Shown here: positions 45,744 to 52,087 of the stretch, piece by piece
Layout: each line of letters opens with the position of its first letter
Numbering within the stretch: the first letter of the stretch is position 1
Assembly: GCF_902167635.1 (NCBI RefSeq)
Contig: NZ_CABHMS010000011.1
Location: forward strand, 2,501 to 66,500
DNA: 64,000 nt
Reading direction: 5' to 3'
Source: Chitinophaga vietnamensis
GTDB lineage: Bacteria; Bacteroidota; Bacteroidia; Chitinophagales; Chitinophagaceae
Translations under genes and position numbers: made by a program
Notes under the pieces: model-generated
What the model saw: only the letters and a program-made list of their open reading frames with translations
The model's database searches: none
What the model was told of the DNA's origin: nothing

Positions 45744-46251
45744 ATGAAAAGATTGAATTTGTTATGCTGATGGTATTCACAAAGCTAAATGTTCGCAGGG
45801 TAAAAAAATCATCAAATTTTACACCAACCCATAACGCTTTCAAAATCTGTTGAATATTTAAGGGTATCTATACCATTGAGAACCAAAGACCGGAAAAATT
45901 TATACTTATCATTTCCTCAAAAAACGCCACCTTGTTTATGAATTATTATGGAAATAATACTATTTTACCTTTACCTTCATGTGAAGATGTATCGATTTTA
46001 ATCTATTCAACGATGAATTATTTATCCCGGGGCAACGCTAACTGCGGAGGATAGAGAGATGTAACATCCCTTGCTACTATGACCAACAAAACGCATTGAG
46101 CATATCACAATGCCAGGATGTATCGTTGTTAGCACGACTCGTGTTTCTGTGAATAGACTGATGATGTAAAATCCATACCATAAAGCAGCTTATTAAAACA
46201 TACCGGGCCACCCTGGTTATAAAACTAATTTTATTAAAGCATCCCAGTTAC
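45744..46251. other. 508-nt intergenic region sod / acyltransferase-like gene
   Basis: Divergent spacer. Next to sod it carries a perfect -7 box (45780-45787, minus). The middle (45840-46020) is AT-rich with short repeats; 46020-46170 is more GC-rich and holds short open frames only. A weak plus-strand -7 match, TAATTTTA (46226-46233, 7 of 8), lies 18 nt before the ATG at 46252. No RNA gene or repeat was recognised, but the length leaves room for regulatory sites of the cluster that follows. Confidence 0.45.
45780..45787 (-). promoter_or_regulatory. -7 box for the sod gene
   Basis: Minus-strand TAGCTTTG, a perfect consensus, 37 nt upstream of the sod start. A TTTG lies 25 nt further, a longer spacer than normal. 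Confidence 0.55.
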
Positions 46252-46971
46252 ATGCTTAAGGTAAGAGTATTCAAGGCGATAGAATATCCTGAAGAATGTT
46301 TGCAATATATTGCAGGGCACCGCAAAGTGCTGGAGGCTTATGGTGTGACCAAGGTCACCTCGGCCAATGTGGACTGGATGTATGAGCCTTATACTTATAT
46401 CATTACCGTAAGCAATGATGATTATTCCAAGATGTATGGCGGATGCCGCATTCAGCTCGCAGGTGGCAGTGTGCCTTTGCCAATTGAATCGGCGATCAAC
46501 AACATGGATCCCCGTATATACGGTATCGTGAAAGACCTGGCTGCCGCTGGCGGTACCGGCGAATTCTGCGGGCTCTGGAACTCCCGCGAAGTGGCGGGTT
46601 GGGGCATTGGCAGTATTGTACTTTTTCGTGTAGTCAATGCCGTATTGGATCAGCTGCCTGTCACCACTTTCCTCGGGTTCTGCGCGCAAACGACCTTCCG
46701 CAACAGCATCCGCACAGGCTATCAGATCATGACCAATATCGGCAACCAGGGTACGTTCTATTATCCCAAAGAAGACCTGATCGCGACGGCCTTGATCCTG
46801 AAAGATCCGCTGGAACTGAAAAGTGCGCATCCGGAAGACCGGGAAAGAATGTTAAACCTCCGCCATCATCCCGTTCAGACCATTGTAGAAAAAGGCCCTA
46901 AAGGTGAAATGCAGGTAGATTACGATCTTCGCATCATGTCGGCAGAACTGAGCAAGCTGCCTTTCGTGTGA
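46252..46971 (+). CDS. LuxI/GNAT-like acyltransferase candidate
   Basis: 239 aa, soluble, no signal peptide. I recognise it as belonging to a Bacteroidota family of unknown function with a GNAT-like look: an N-terminal VRVFKAIEYPEECLQYIAGHRKVLEAYG, a central conserved MYGGCRIQLAGG and AAGGTGEFCGLWNSREVAGWGIGS (Arg-x3-Gly-x-Gly, resembling the acyl-CoA loop of GNAT or autoinducer synthases), then NEGTFYYPK-type sequence (NQGTFYYPKEDLIATALILKD). The role is inferred from context: it starts a tight cluster with a ThiF/E1-like gene (28 nt downstream) and three signalling genes. It might acylate a small molecule or protein; no enzyme test exists here. Confidence 0.65.
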   Translation: MLKVRVFKAIEYPEECLQYIAGHRKVLEAYGVTKVTSANVDWMYEPYTYIITVSNDDYSKMYGGCRIQLAGGSVPLPIESAINNMDPRIYGIVKDLAAAGGTGEFCGLWNSREVAGWGIGSIVLFRVVNAVLDQLPVTTFLGFCAQTTFRNSIRTGYQIMTNIGNQGTFYYPKEDLIATALILKDPLELKSAHPEDRERMLNLRHHPVQTIVEKGPKGEMQVDYDLRIMSAELSKLPFV

Positions 46972-46999
46972 AGCAATATATAAACAGCACTATAAAACG

Positions 47000-48118
47000 A
47001 TGAACACAACGATAGCCAACGCAATACTGGCCAGTACGCGAGATCAATATCAACGACAAGTCCAATTCTTCCGGTTAAACGATCCTTCGCAGGCAACAGC
47101 ACTCATTTCTCTCCTTGAACAACACCCCGATATCAAAGTTTTCGACAGACTGCTGACACAGCTGGCAGAACTGGTAAAACTGCGCCATCCTTCGCAGCTC
47201 CTGACGGAAGAAGCCACCCAGGAACATGTTGCAGCAATCCTCGGCAACACAGCGCCGGAGGCCTATGGCGTATGGGTATACTATCCCTGGTCTGGCCGCA
47301 TTGTGCATATCGTGGATGAAGATGAATTTATAGAACTGCGTACCAGCAGGAATAAACAAAAGATCACAACGGCCGACCTGCAAACGCTGCGCAGCAAAAA
47401 AATTGGCGTAATGGGTTTGTCGGTAGGACAATCGGTAGCGCTCACCCTCGCCATGGAAAGGCTTTGCGGCGAATTGCGCATCGCGGATTTTGATCACCTC
47501 GACCTGAGCAATATGAACCGCATCCGTACCGGCGTTCAAAATATCGGTATCCTCAAAACCGTGCTGGTAGCCCGGGAAATTGCGGAAATCGATCCTTTTC
47601 TGAAAGTAGTGTGTTATGATGAAGGAATATCGGAAGAAAATATCGGCGCTTTTCTGACAGACAATGGCAAGCTGGATATTCTTGTAGAAGAATGCGACAG
47701 CCTGGACATCAAGATATTAAGCCGTCACAAGGCGCGCGAACTGGGTATCCCGGTATTGATGGATACCAGCGACCGAGGCATGGTGGACATAGAAAGATTT
47801 GATCTCCAGCCTGATTTACCTATCTTGCATGGCAGAGTACCAGAACATCTTACGCCCGCAGATATCCGCCAGATGCAGGGCCCGGCGCGGATGGCTATGG
47901 TAGACAGTATCGTGGAGTTCAAAGCACTGTCTGCCAAAATGCAACAATCATTGCAGGAAATAGGCAAAAGTATTACCACCTGGCCACAGCTGGCATCGGC
48001 GGTAATGCTCGGTGGCGCTGCGATAGGCCATGTTTGCAGAGAGCTCGCGCTCGGCAACTCATTACCATCCGGCAGGTATTATGTAGACCTGGAACAGATT
48101 TTTAAACAACCAAACTGA
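47000..48118 (+). CDS. ThiF/E1-like adenylating enzyme (Rv1355c-type)
   Basis: 372 aa. Residues about 1-125 are a helical domain, residues 126-290 a ThiF/MoeB/E1 Rossmann domain: KKIGVMGLSVGQSVALTL (nucleotide loop), RIADFDHLDLSNMNRIRTG (Asp and Arg that bind ATP) and LVEECDSLDIKI. Known E1-like proteins adenylate the C-terminus of a small protein or activate a carboxylate. It matches the Rv1355c family, whose longer members add an FMN nitroreductase domain; here this is missing. The zinc CxxC pairs of MoeB/ThiF are absent. No ubiquitin-like partner is visible, so the target is unknown. The next gene starts 13 nt after its stop. Confidence 0.75.
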   Translation: MNTTIANAILASTRDQYQRQVQFFRLNDPSQATALISLLEQHPDIKVFDRLLTQLAELVKLRHPSQLLTEEATQEHVAAILGNTAPEAYGVWVYYPWSGRIVHIVDEDEFIELRTSRNKQKITTADLQTLRSKKIGVMGLSVGQSVALTLAMERLCGELRIADFDHLDLSNMNRIRTGVQNIGILKTVLVAREIAEIDPFLKVVCYDEGISEENIGAFLTDNGKLDILVEECDSLDIKILSRHKARELGIPVLMDTSDRGMVDIERFDLQPDLPILHGRVPEHLTPADIRQMQGPARMAMVDSIVEFKALSAKMQQSLQEIGKSITTWPQLASAVMLGGAAIGHVCRELALGNSLPSGRYYVDLEQIFKQPN

Positions 48119-48131
48119 TCGATCTGAAACA

Positions 48132-50300
48132 ATGCTACATCTGAACAAACCGGTTATTTATAAATTCGTATGCCTGTTACTGTTAGTAATGGCCCGCTGT
48201 ATACCTGTTTGGGCAGATACCATAGAAATATCCCCTGCCACGCCCATACAGCTCGCCGAATACGGGCAGATCGAATACCTGCTCGATCCCACCGGCCAGA
48301 TGCAGTTTAAAGACGTGATGAAGGAAGACAAATTCCAGAAGCTGGGGAAACAGATTCCGAATTTCGGTCTTACCAAAGATGCCATCTGGCTGCGGTTCAC
48401 CATTCACAATAACAGCGCCGGCGACGATCTGATGTTCGATGTCACCTACCCCATCCTTGATCTCATCGATCTTTATTTTCCCGACGACAGCGGCCAATAC
48501 AAAGTAGTACCCGGCGGCGAGCTGCGTCCTTTCAATAAGCGACCGGTTAACCATCAGAATTTTGTATACAATATCAGGATACCTAACGGTACCGCACAAA
48601 CGTTTATCTTCCGTATACAAAGCCGGGAAGCCATACTGGTGCCCATTTACATTGGCACGCCCAGGGAGATCTACAATAAACTTTATAATGACGACCTCCT
48701 GTTATCTATCTACATAGGTATCATCCTCGTCATGATCTTTTATAACACTTTTATCTTCTTCTCCGTACGCGACTGGAGTTATTTCTATTACATTATTTAC
48801 ATCGCGTGCGTGGGCCTGGCACAGGTATGCCTGCATGGTTTCGGCTACCGTTTCTTCTGGCATGAGAACCTGTTCATCACGGAGCAAAGCGTGCTATGGG
48901 CGGGGGCCTTGTCGGGTATTTCGGTCTTGTTATTTGTACAGAACTTCCTGCATGTGAAAGAGCGCGCGCCCTGGGCTTACCGCATTTTCACCTTCTTCAT
49001 TATCGTATATTCCAGTACGTTAGTACTATCGCTGCTCGGTTATTTTTCTATAGCTTATGGCCTGATCGATATCCTGGCGATTACCGGTGTGAGTTTCATC
49101 TTATTGTTTGCCGTGTCGCAGGCTTTCCGGCATTCCAAGCCGGCGCGCATCTTTGTACTGGCCTGGACTATCTTCATTGTAGCGGTGATCACCTTTGTTT
49201 TGAAAGATGTAGGTATCATCCCGTATAATATCTTCACCAGTCACATCCTGCTGATCGGTTCCGGTATGGAAGTAGTATTGCTGTCCTTTGCGCTGGCCGA
49301 CAAGATCAACACTTTCAAAGCCGAGAAAGAAGCCTCACAGGCGCTGGCCCTGCAGATATCCAAGGAAAACGAGCAACTGGTAAGAGAGCAGAACATCATA
49401 CTGGAAGCCAAAGTACAGGAACGTACGGAAGAATTACAGAACAGTAACCGCGACCTGAACGTAGCGCTCACCAACCTGAAAGATACACAGACCCGTCTTG
49501 TGGAGAAGGAGAAAATGGCATCACTCGGTCAGCTCACCGCGGGCATTGCGCATGAGATCAACAACCCGATCAATTTTGTTACCTCCAATATCAAACCGCT
49601 GAAACTCGATATCGCCGACCTGCAAAGCCTGCTCAACAAATACGCTGAGCTGGGCGAGGCCGCAGATATGAAGTCGGAGCTGGCATCCATAGAACAATTT
49701 AAAAAAGAGATCGATATCGATTATATTCACGAAGAGATATCTTCCCTGATCAAGGGTATTGAAGATGGCGCGGCACGTACCGCTGAAATTGTGAAGGGAC
49801 TGCGTACCTTCAGCCGCCTCGATGAAAGCGACGTAAAATCCATTGACATCCACGAAGGGCTTGATTCCACGCTGGTGCTATTACGCAATGCCATTCCGCC
49901 GCATGTGACCATCATCAAGCAATACAGCGAATTACCGAAAGTGGAGTGCTACGCGGGCAAAGTGAACCAGGTGTTTATGAACATCCTCTCCAATGCGCTG
50001 AACGCTATCAAGATGAAGAAGGAACAACGCAATGAATCCATCATCATCGCTACCCGCCAGGAAGGAGAATTTGTAGTGATCAGCATCAAAGACAGCGGCA
50101 TTGGTATGTCGGCCGCCGTGAAAGAAAAGATCTTTGATCCTTTCTTTACCACCAAAGATGTAGGGGAAGGAACCGGGCTGGGATTATCTATCGTTTTCAG
50201 TATCATAGAAAAACATAAAGGCAGGATCATTGTTAATTCGGCGCCAGACAAGGGTGCAGAATTTATTATATATTTACCACTAAGACTGGATTTTCAATAA
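48132..50300 (+). CDS. 7TMR-DISM sensor histidine kinase
   Basis: 722 aa. A signal peptide (residues 1-28) is followed by an extracytoplasmic 7TMR-DISMED2 sensory domain (about 40-180), seven membrane helices (about 185-405, beginning LLSIYIGIILVMIFYN), a coiled coil (about 410-460) and a HisKA/HATPase kinase. The phosphorylated His is at about 474 (TAGIAHEINNPINFV), Asn box NILSNALNAIKM, G1 KDSGIGM and G2 GEGTGLGLSIVF. The kinase is of the AtoS/NtrB-like type. The extracytoplasmic domain has a carbohydrate-binding-like jellyroll fold in related proteins, so a small extracellular ligand is likely. It is the sensor of the 46-52 kb cluster. Confidence 0.88.
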   Translation: MLHLNKPVIYKFVCLLLLVMARCIPVWADTIEISPATPIQLAEYGQIEYLLDPTGQMQFKDVMKEDKFQKLGKQIPNFGLTKDAIWLRFTIHNNSAGDDLMFDVTYPILDLIDLYFPDDSGQYKVVPGGELRPFNKRPVNHQNFVYNIRIPNGTAQTFIFRIQSREAILVPIYIGTPREIYNKLYNDDLLLSIYIGIILVMIFYNTFIFFSVRDWSYFYYIIYIACVGLAQVCLHGFGYRFFWHENLFITEQSVLWAGALSGISVLLFVQNFLHVKERAPWAYRIFTFFIIVYSSTLVLSLLGYFSIAYGLIDILAITGVSFILLFAVSQAFRHSKPARIFVLAWTIFIVAVITFVLKDVGIIPYNIFTSHILLIGSGMEVVLLSFALADKINTFKAEKEASQALALQISKENEQLVREQNIILEAKVQERTEELQNSNRDLNVALTNLKDTQTRLVEKEKMASLGQLTAGIAHEINNPINFVTSNIKPLKLDIADLQSLLNKYAELGEAADMKSELASIEQFKKEIDIDYIHEEISSLIKGIEDGAARTAEIVKGLRTFSRLDESDVKSIDIHEGLDSTLVLLRNAIPPHVTIIKQYSELPKVECYAGKVNQVFMNILSNALNAIKMKKEQRNESIIIATRQEGEFVVISIKDSGIGMSAAVKEKIFDPFFTTKDVGEGTGLGLSIVFSIIEKHKGRIIVNSAPDKGAEFIIYLPLRLDFQ

Positions 50301-50349
50301 TCAATCTATAACCCGTTAGTTGTATCAGTAATAACCATAAGTCCCTTTA

Positions 50350-51447
50350 ATGAAAGAAAACCGCATACGTATATTGTACATTGATGATGAGGTCCATAAC
50401 CTGAATGCGTTCAAGGCCAGTTTCCGCAGGAGTTATGAGATCTACACTGCCAGCTCCGCGCAGGAAGGCAAGCAATTGCTCAAGGAGATCATGGTGCATA
50501 TCATCATCGCCGACCAGAAGATGCCAGTATCTACCGGGGTGGAGTTTTTCAATGAGATCAAAGATATCCTGCCTGATCCCATGCGCATATTGCTCACCGG
50601 TTATACAGATGTTGAAGATATTATTGATGCGATCAACCGCGGTCATATCTTTTCCTATATCAAAAAACCCTGGGATGAACATGAGCTGCACAAAACCATC
50701 AACAATGCATACGAGATCTATTCTACCCGGAAACAGCTGAAAGAAAAGATTGAAGAGCTGGAAAAAACCAATGATGAACTGAACCGGTTCATATATTCCA
50801 CTTCCCACGATCTTCGTTCACCGCTGATGTCGGTACTGGGGATCATCAATCTTTCCCGGCTGGACAATTCCGTCACAGATCCGAACGGCTACCTCAATAT
50901 GGTGGAATCCTGTGTGCTCAAGCTGGACGGATTTATACAGAAGATCATTGAATACTACCGCAATTCCAGGCTGGAAGTGGAATATGAGAAGATCGATTTC
51001 AACAATCTGCTGAGTGATTGTGTATCGGTGTTCCAGCCACAGAATACAGATATCCGTTTCCAGACGCAGGTAGACCAGGCCATTGATTTCCGCGGAGATA
51101 CCTTCCGCATCAGCGTTATCCTCAATAACCTGATCTCCAATGCAGTAAAATATCAGAAACCGGATGAAGCCCATCCGATGGTACATCTGTCCGTAAAAGT
51201 AGAACCTCACAAGGCCACTATATGTATCCGGGATAATGGTATTGGCATTCTGAGCGAGCATCTGAATAATATCTTCAAAATGTTCTTCCGTTCAAAAAAT
51301 AATAACAAGCCAGGCAGCGGTATCGGTTTGTATATCGTGAAAGAGGCCCTGAGCAAGATCGGCGGTAATATTAACGTCGAATCGAAATATGGAGAAGGCA
51401 CTCAATTTGAAATTACGATCCCGAACAGAAATGAATTCGATACCTGA
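50350..51447 (+). CDS. Receiver-histidine kinase hybrid
   Basis: 365 aa, cytoplasmic. The receiver domain (about 5-120) has phospho-Asp at 55 (ADQKMPVSTG) and the conserved Lys in KKPWDEH. It is followed by a kinase: His at 153 (YSTSHDLRSPLMS), Asn box NNLISNAVKYQ, G1 RDNGIGI, F-box and G2 KPGSGIGLYIVKE. Receiver-first order means it probably accepts phosphate from the 7TMR-DISM kinase and then phosphorylates the next receiver protein. The receiver closely resembles the lone receiver at 8920 (both contain LNAFKASFRR). It overlaps the following gene by 17 nt. Confidence 0.88.
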   Translation: MKENRIRILYIDDEVHNLNAFKASFRRSYEIYTASSAQEGKQLLKEIMVHIIIADQKMPVSTGVEFFNEIKDILPDPMRILLTGYTDVEDIIDAINRGHIFSYIKKPWDEHELHKTINNAYEIYSTRKQLKEKIEELEKTNDELNRFIYSTSHDLRSPLMSVLGIINLSRLDNSVTDPNGYLNMVESCVLKLDGFIQKIIEYYRNSRLEVEYEKIDFNNLLSDCVSVFQPQNTDIRFQTQVDQAIDFRGDTFRISVILNNLISNAVKYQKPDEAHPMVHLSVKVEPHKATICIRDNGIGILSEHLNNIFKMFFRSKNNNKPGSGIGLYIVKEALSKIGGNINVESKYGEGTQFEITIPNRNEFDT

Positions 51448-51850
51448 CTTGCGTGTCATACTGATTGACGACAACGAGATTGACCTGCTGCTGCATGAGA
51501 AGTTGATCACCTTTCAACACATCAGCAGAACAGTGCTTTCTTTCACCAATCCAAACAAGGCGCTGGAATTTCTTTCCAGCAATATTTCCCTGCCACGGAT
51601 ACCGCCCACGGTGATCCTGCTGGACATCCAGATGCCGGAGATGGACGGCTTCGAATTTATGCAGGCCTTTGACGCCTATCCGCATAAGATCAAATCGCAA
51701 TGCCATATCATCATGGTATCATCTACCCTCGATTATGGTGATATTACCCGTACCAATGCCAGTCCGATGGTAACAAAATTACTCCGGAAACCCTTACTGG
51801 TAAAGGATTTAAAAGAAACCATCGAAGGTATTTTCAAAGATTTTTTATAA
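51431..51850 (+). CDS. Stand-alone receiver protein
   Basis: 139 aa receiver domain with acidic pair DDNE (about residue 13), phospho-Asp at 65 (LLDIQMPEMDG), Ser/Thr in MVSSTLD and Lys in LRKPLLVKD. No output domain. The chosen ATG at 51431 overlaps the end of the kinase hybrid by 17 nt; an ATG at 51389 is possible but would add residues inside the kinase gene. Last gene of the signalling cluster; it may relay phosphate to a target elsewhere. Confidence 0.87.
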   Translation: MNSIPDLRVILIDDNEIDLLLHEKLITFQHISRTVLSFTNPNKALEFLSSNISLPRIPPTVILLDIQMPEMDGFEFMQAFDAYPHKIKSQCHIIMVSSTLDYGDITRTNASPMVTKLLRKPLLVKDLKETIEGIFKDFL

Positions 51851-51912: not shown

Positions 51913-51985
51913 GGGGGATTAGCTCATCTGGTAGAGCGCAAGCATGGCATGTTTGAGGTGACCGGTTCGATCCCGGTATCCTCCA
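51913..51985 (+). tRNA. tRNA-Ala (anticodon GGC)
   Basis: 73 nt. Acceptor GGGGGAT/ATCCTCC (one G-U), D-arm with AGCTCATCTGGTAGAGC, anticodon stem CAAGC/GTTTG around loop ATGGCAT (anticodon GGC) and T-arm CCGGTTCGATCCCGG. CCA not encoded. Confidence 0.92.
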
Positions 51986-51994
51986 CCGAGTAAA

Positions 51995-52021
51995 AGTCCG
52001 GACCTACCACAGGTCCGGACT
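51995..52021 (+). terminator. Terminator of tRNA-Ala
   Basis: Perfect 11-bp stem AGTCCGGACCT with its complement around a 5-nt loop, followed by five T. It begins 10 nt after the tRNA. Confidence 0.9.
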
Positions 52022-52087
52022 TTTTCATTTATGCCGGTACATCTCTCCCTCAATTTGATAAATTGCATTTCCTAATCAGACCATGAT

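Follow-up and report, generated by a model that had tools for sequence, protein, structure and literature searches.

The window analyzed here is a stretch of 64,000 nt on contig NZ_CABHMS010000011.1 from the 6.3 Mb genome of Chitinophaga, a soil bacterium. Five consecutive open reading frames (ORFs) are located on the plus strand at positions 46252–51850. These encode a candidate acyltransferase (AT), a ThiF/E1-like cyclase, a 7TMR-DISM histidine kinase, a hybrid of a receiver domain (REC) and a histidine kinase, and a lone receiver. Across the genomes sampled, the AT gene is constantly linked to a gene for a 7TMR-DISM kinase, the place of the cyclase is a variable slot for tailoring enzymes, and the loci have a mosaic history. 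The gene set probably makes a small molecule from a fatty acid and an amino acid, which would be sensed by a membrane receptor encoded in the same cluster. The features of the locus are listed below, with the source of each assignment in parentheses.

45744–46251, no strand assigned: upstream region of 508 nt with a Chitinophaga-conserved block at 45960–45989
46252–46971, plus strand: gene 1, AT, 239 aa, candidate N-acyl amino acid synthase and constant synthase gene of the module (ORF; AT profile)
47000–48118, plus strand: gene 2, ThiF/E1-like cyclase of the Rv1355c/TrzS family, 372 aa, without the flavin-dependent oxidase (FDO) half (PF00899; NF005901)
48132–50300, plus strand: gene 3, 7TMR-DISM histidine kinase, 722 aa (Pfam)
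48132–49316, plus strand: sensor part of gene 3, residues 1–395, with an apparent signal peptide, 7TMR-DISMED2, and the seven-transmembrane (7TM) stretch (Pfam; parsimony windows; signal peptide by eye)
49209–49512, plus strand: zone of history change in gene 3, about residues 360–460 (sliding parsimony windows)
49452–50300, plus strand: kinase core of gene 3, residues 441–722, with phosphoacceptor His474 (Pfam; conserved residues; tree comparisons)
50350–51447, plus strand: gene 4, REC-histidine kinase hybrid, 365 aa, with Asp55 in REC and His153 in the kinase (Pfam; conserved residues)
51389–51850, plus strand: gene 5, lone receiver, 153 aa (139 aa with the internal ATG at 51431 as start), with Asp79 in the 153-aa numbering (Pfam; motif)

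The gaps between genes 1 and 2, 2 and 3, and 3 and 4 are 28, 13, and 49 nt, respectively. The ORF coordinates confirm the reality of the five frames and agree in this with a first-pass annotation of the window. The overlap of 17 nt between genes 4 and 5 given in that annotation applies to the internal ATG at 51431, and an overlap of 59 nt is obtained from the ATG at 51389. Lone receivers at the position of gene 5 are 128–163 aa long in most relatives. The cluster is far beyond chance because the same cluster recurs across Bacteroidota.

Enzymes and signaling proteins of the locus

No Pfam or NCBIfam family was found for gene 1, and its nearest named relatives are from Chitinophaga species (91–93% identity). 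The invariant columns of the AT alignment include H23, W42, E104, and W109. When the AT profile was searched against 2280 proteins, two Rhodococcus proteins ranked first and second with weak E values of 0.001 and 0.02, and both are encoded adjoining genes of the Rv1355c family. Eight of 60 AT members match the GNAT family (PF00583) weakly, with a best value of 8e-4. None of the 60 matches the LuxI or FeeM families of Pfam at E 0.1, and no LuxI or FeeM match was obtained with the AT profile among the sequences of the PDB. Gene 1 had been described as LuxI/GNAT-like; a weak GNAT match is retained from this description, and membership in the LuxI family is not supported by sequence, as searches of Pfam, NCBIfam, and the PDB sequences gave no match of the LuxI type. 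Passages of PMC10404671 describe the acyltransferase TyzA as FeeM/BjaI-like by structure. Two tandem AT genes are present in one relative (L045 of G089; loci are labeled L, genomes G, contigs C, and genera g), between the genes for a ThiF-oxidase and the kinase.

Gene 2 is assigned to ThiF (PF00899) by Pfam. It scores 449 bits against the Rv1355c family model NF005901 over model positions 4–340 of 722, which falls below a cut-off of 476 bits that applies to the fusion at full length. Gene 2 lacks the second half of the model, and the protein stops after the ThiF half. The alignment with a Rhodococcus protein of the Rv1355c family extends through the ThiF half of the latter with motifs common to both, and the adenylation-domain motifs are kept, including EECDSLDIK. 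No fixed sequence difference was found between ThiF relatives with and without the fused oxidase. The earlier assignment to an Rv1355c-type ThiF enzyme is thus correct for the ThiF half with its motifs, and the oxidase half of the family is absent. No FDO is encoded in gene 2 or its neighbors. Just two matches to PF00881 were detected in the genome, in open frames 210 and 201 aa long, and these are possible oxidase donors.

According to passages of PMC12856293, Rv1355c is TrzS, which produces N-acyl tryptazolones together with the acyltransferase TrzA. The ThiF half of TrzS closes the ring and the oxidase half then desaturates it; the saturated ring accumulates at low oxygen or with a disabled oxidase (PMC12856293). 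TyzACB and OxzAB are related acyltransferase-cyclase pairs (PMC12856293, PMC10404671). The enzyme pair of the window is suggestive of acyl-oxazolone chemistry, which has been published. The product predicted for this strain is a saturated acyl-oxazolone or the compound formed from it by hydrolysis, as would be expected from a cyclase that ends after the ThiF half.

Gene 3 contains 7TMR-DISMED2 (PF07696), 7TMR-DISM_7TM (PF07695), and HATPase_c, with HisKA under its cut-off. His474 and the residues of the N-box and G-box are at least 97% conserved. With these domains and residues, gene 3 belongs to the 7TMR-DISM histidine kinases. Response_reg and HATPase_c were identified in gene 4 and Response_reg in gene 5. 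The domain calls made earlier for these three proteins are thereby upheld. A histidine kinase, a REC-kinase hybrid, and a receiver are all present with their key residues kept. No gene for a histidine phosphotransfer protein turned up in the cluster, and no search of the cluster or genome was aimed at one. Three proteins with DISMED2 are encoded in the genome of the window.

Linkage of AT to the kinase and the tailoring slot

Relatives of AT were detected in 89 of 288 genomes of the family and in 13 of 395 genomes of a phylum-wide draw. The corresponding numbers for ThiF are 56 of 294 and 11 of 395. The surroundings of AT were mapped at 140 loci, of which 131 are distinct. A 7TMR-DISM kinase is encoded downstream on the same strand, with zero to two called genes between, at 129 of the 131 distinct loci; the remaining two run off the contig with 94 and 1 bases left. 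Counted by genome, AT with a downstream kinase is found in 87 of 89 family genomes (two contig ends) and in all 13 genomes of the phylum draw. Among the 138 loci with a kinase, the kinase is adjoined by a receiver-kinase at 123, by a lone receiver at seven, and by another gene or a contig end at eight. A lone receiver in place of the receiver-kinase follows the kinase at the methyltransferase-type loci L142, L152, L161, L168, L171, and L175.

The first-pass annotation had proposed examining whether an acyltransferase-ThiF pair stays beside 7TMR-DISM kinases. For AT this is the case. ThiF as a constant partner is rejected, since AT loci without ThiF hold other enzymes or nothing, and ThiF is one of several options beside a constant AT. 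ThiF, AT, and the kinase occur together in 53 of the 56 genomes with ThiF, the locus is cut by a contig end in two others (G033 and G228), and AT is missing beside the ThiF-oxidase and kinase of the remaining one (G271).

The converse control was a search for the sensor half of the window in 147 family genomes, taken as handles G000–G146. At a threshold of 147 bits, which was chosen after the list was seen, 46 matches of at least this score were obtained, and 45 of these are beside AT (the exception is G063:C32). Among 39 weaker matches, whose positions were compared with those of the AT matches, one is beside AT, at a contig edge (G105). The genomes with a sensor orthologue (the 45 and the one at the contig edge) are exactly the 46 genomes with AT.

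The enzymes in the slot at AT loci without ThiF are an ICMT/PEMT-type membrane methyltransferase of about 212 aa, a class I methyltransferase of about 254 aa, or a flavin adenine dinucleotide (FAD)-binding oxidase of about 536 aa; the slot is empty at some loci. Among the 122 loci with full kinases, ThiF-oxidase is found at 52 (two of these labels were inferred from fragments), ThiF without the oxidase at 36, the ICMT-type enzyme at 10, the class I methyltransferase at seven, the FAD oxidase at five, and no enzyme at nine, with three undetermined, and these proportions reflect locus sampling. The gene order is either AT-ThiF or ThiF-AT. An N-acyl amino acid could plausibly be finished by any of ring closure, desaturation, and carboxyl methylation.

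A divergent lone receiver upstream is part of the locus in most relatives and is not found in the clade of the window. A gene for a 105-aa protein often adjoins this receiver (L143, L150, L154, and similar loci), and the one at L143 encodes a thioredoxin. In the window, 508 nt at 45744–46251 separate gene 1 from a divergent gene for superoxide dismutase, and this upstream length agrees with the first-pass annotation. An exact 17-mer within the block at 45960–45989 (plus strand) is kept in eight other Chitinophaga loci. The block contains the dyad CTTCA-TG-TGAAG, is located about 260 nt before gene 1, and is present as a single copy in its own genome at up to three mismatches. An upstream RNA element was rejected, there being no match in Rfam over the gathering score, and a promoter scan was uninformative (16 sites versus 13.0 expected). 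A gene for tRNA-Ala(GGC) is located just past gene 5 and is followed by a terminator-like hairpin of 14 pairs (window 51913–52024).

Mosaic history and joint variation

Trees were constructed for AT, the sensor half, the kinase core, and the receiver-kinase on 113 loci, and the fewest label changes on each tree were counted over 20 resamplings of 150 columns. For the genus label (51 loci in 16 genera, minimum of 15 changes), the counts are 15.0 for the receiver-kinase, 16.2 for the core, 26.2 for AT, and 27.2 for the sensor. For the tailoring type, with both forms of ThiF merged, the counts are 8.9 for the sensor, 12.7 for AT, 15.4 for the core, and 15.6 for the receiver-kinase. The two halves of the kinase have different histories because their genus and tailoring counts differ. 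Across successive 70-column windows of the kinase, genus changes decrease from 26–30 through 22 and 21 to 17–20, and tailoring changes increase from 8–10 (14 in the first window) through 12 and 14 to 15–17. The change point of both counts is at about residues 360–460.

The upstream divergent receiver (81 loci) follows genus with 14.8 changes for a minimum of 13, compared with 21.9 for AT, 22.9 for the sensor, and 32.4 for shuffled labels. The downstream receivers do so as well (8.8, minimum of 8). ThiF departs from the genus history with 15.1 changes for a minimum of nine, versus 10.7 for the core. When the window is compared with G177 of the same genus, the identities are 47% for AT, 51% for ThiF, 31% for the sensor, 82% for the core, and 91% for the receiver-kinase. 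Within genus g14 they are 32% for AT, 32% for the sensor, 87% for the core, and 91% for the receiver-kinase. The loci are mosaics in which the outer receivers, the core, and the receiver-kinase follow genus, and AT, ThiF, and the sensor domain vary together.

The joint variation was quantified with 245 close pairs of loci in which the core and the receiver-kinase are both at least 70% identical; these pairs are non-independent. The identities of AT and the sensor correlate at 0.89, those of AT and the core at 0.57, and those of the sensor and the core at 0.55. AT and the sensor are both high in 127 pairs and both low in 97; AT is high with a low sensor in 20, and the reverse is found in one. 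By genus label, no part varies more than the extracellular domain, with 27.8 changes. This would fit a surface-exposed sensor that diversifies under pressure from phages or predators and drags the synthase genes along. That explanation is very improbable in view of AT and ThiF, which are cytoplasmic by sequence and yet vary far more than the core, of the correlation between AT and the sensor, and of the 20 of 245 pairs, which make replacement of the sensor beside an unchanged synthase not the common case.

Loci L095, L096, and L098 were compared with L059, L099, and L100. AT is 82–87% identical between the two sets, the ThiF-oxidase is replaced by the FAD oxidase, and the sensors are 41–43% identical. 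In 70 pairs with a like AT and the same tailoring, the median identity of the sensor is 78.7% (range 30–98). This contrast between loci alike in AT and different in tailoring suggests that it is the tailored end product that the sensor reads.

Several results weigh against a matched set of synthase, tailoring enzyme, and sensor. Approximately unbiased (AU) tests reject genus monophyly in only three of six cases, with p values for AT of 0.07 (g14), 5e-88 (g20), and 0.01 (g1) and for the sensor of 0.24 (g14), 1e-4 (g20), and 0.24 (g1); these mixed results make fast divergence instead of exchange possible for some genera. In the trees of the core and the receiver-kinase, each of these three genera already forms one side of a branch (support 87–100). 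The contrast at 82–87% identity of AT is one evolutionary event across nine pairs, and L051 and L164 share the tailoring class and 80% identity of AT with sensors of 30% identity. Plain distance correlations are weak and unspecific (AT-sensor 0.47, AT-core 0.45). For 25 loci without ThiF, the tailoring type was predicted from the nearest neighbor for 18 with the sensor, 17 with the receiver-kinase, 14 with the core, and eight with AT. With 8.7 changes versus 8.8, the sensor does not outperform the core in tracking the presence of the oxidase half, and a coupling of the sensor to loss of this half was rejected. Since AT, the tailoring gene, and the sensor are contiguous, a single recombination would move all of them without a functional tie. 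The profile scores that weakly suggest an acyltransferase, the absence of a recognized exporter or DNA-binding output gene within the cluster, and G271 (L060) are to be added. In G271, a genome that is 67% complete, the kinase pair comes directly after a ThiF-oxidase, and no AT was recognized.

The contiguity of the genes, the mixed AU tests, and the modest tracking by nearest neighbors would also be expected if the enzymes made an antimicrobial or an envelope lipid and the kinases sensed stress, a competitor, or a nutrient to control its production, with joint variation as a consequence of contiguity. Passages of PMC12856293 report that antibiotics induce oxazolones in several proteobacteria and that these compounds are linked to stress. 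Such a regulated metabolite is judged unlikely, while retaining some weight. It leaves unexplained why the sensor half alone leaves the species history while the core follows it, and why AT is present in all 46 genomes of the sample with a sensor orthologue, and no immunity or exporter gene was recognized beside the locus.

Predicted signaling and comparison with known systems

We favor, with a probability of about 0.6, the reading of the locus as a modular synthase-receptor signaling system that uses modified N-acyl amino acids, the chemistry and the signaling both being predicted from sequence. The chemical steps, secretion, ligand binding, phosphotransfer, and output that we infer are as follows. 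AT would acylate an amino acid. ThiF would use ATP to activate the carboxylate and then close the ring to give an acyl-oxazolone, which in this Chitinophaga would be saturated because the desaturating oxidase half is absent. In relatives, where the slot holds ThiF fused to an oxidase, an FAD oxidase, or an enzyme resembling carboxyl methyltransferases, each lineage would produce a different derivative. The product would exit the cell or stay in the membrane and be recognized by the 7TMR-DISM sensor. The REC-kinase hybrid and the lone receiver would then obtain phosphate from the kinase core and act elsewhere in the cell. AT, the tailoring enzyme, and the sensor domain would constitute one specificity cassette, inherited or exchanged, on a constant kinase backbone.

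Retention of the acylated product in the membrane of the producing cell, where the 7TM stretch of the kinase would report its level for feedback with no message between cells, is improbable. The tailoring label is followed by the 7TM stretch no less closely than by the extracellular domain (8.3 versus 9.7 changes), and actinobacterial tryptazolones are enriched in cell pellets (passages of PMC12856293). The acyl-amino acid intermediates, however, are found mainly in supernatants according to the same source, and fast joint variation between congeners would fit communication groups better than homeostasis.

The first-pass annotation had the first two genes making a signal that is detected by the last three, and the linkage, the swapped tailoring enzymes, and the joint variation lend genomic support to this proposal. 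Its description of the circuit as new applies to the locus, which was not found in a literature search conducted mostly without subscription papers and judged in part from titles and the starts of abstracts; the acyl-oxazolone chemistry suggested for the enzyme pair has been published. A broader reading is held more tentatively, at somewhat under even odds: an undescribed quorum-sensing family widespread in Bacteroidota, with N-acyl amino acid signals, interchangeable tailoring, matched 7TMR-DISM sensors, and pherotype-like groups formed by exchange of cassettes. If this were true, the acyl-oxazolones would gain a function. Passages of PMC12856293 describe their physiological role as a major question that awaits an answer, and it could be tested directly with a synthase that is tied to a receptor kinase in roughly 30% of the genomes sampled from the family (89 of 288). 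The locus would supply Bacteroidota with a home-grown small-molecule signaling system with built-in signal diversity. The natural sensor swaps would provide a ready panel for locating the ligand-binding residues of 7TMR-DISM receptors.

Like TrzAS, TyzACB, and OxzAB, the window pairs a gene for a putative N-acyltransferase with one for a ThiF-type cyclase of the Rv1355c family. It differs from these systems in the missing FDO half, in a dedicated 7TMR-DISM kinase cascade at the locus, and in a tailoring slot that varies among relatives. PMC12856293 likens the oxazolones to cell-cell signals and describes the trzAS locus only as adjoining genes for cyclic di-GMP; no passage on a histidine kinase or a two-component system was found in it. 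Gene 3 shares with the 7TMR-DISM sensor kinases the order of signal peptide, DISMED2, 7TM, and kinase. To our knowledge, few ligands of these receptors have been identified, and a literature search conducted mostly without subscription papers returned none of these kinases with a synthase linked to it.

In the ComQXP(A) system of Bacillus, the membrane histidine kinase is hypervariable at its sensor end, as are the synthase genes, and conserved at its kinase end (passages of PMC6334282). The loci described here resemble it in a contiguous synthase-sensor cassette, with linked synthase and receptor genes at 129 of 131 loci, and in the joint hypervariability of the synthase and the sensor domain beside a conserved core, for which the AU tests are mixed. 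The signal in Bacillus is a peptide pheromone, whereas here it is presumed to be an N-acyl amino acid derivative; ComA is a DNA-binding regulator, whereas the receivers here stand alone, and the sensor class differs. In signaling of the LuxM/LuxN type, the gene for a membrane hybrid histidine kinase lies beside that for the synthase of an acyl-homoserine lactone, and the kinase detects this lactone. By gene layout alone, the present loci share with LuxM/LuxN an acylated small molecule, predicted here, and a membrane kinase beside the synthase, and they differ from it in the class of the sensor.

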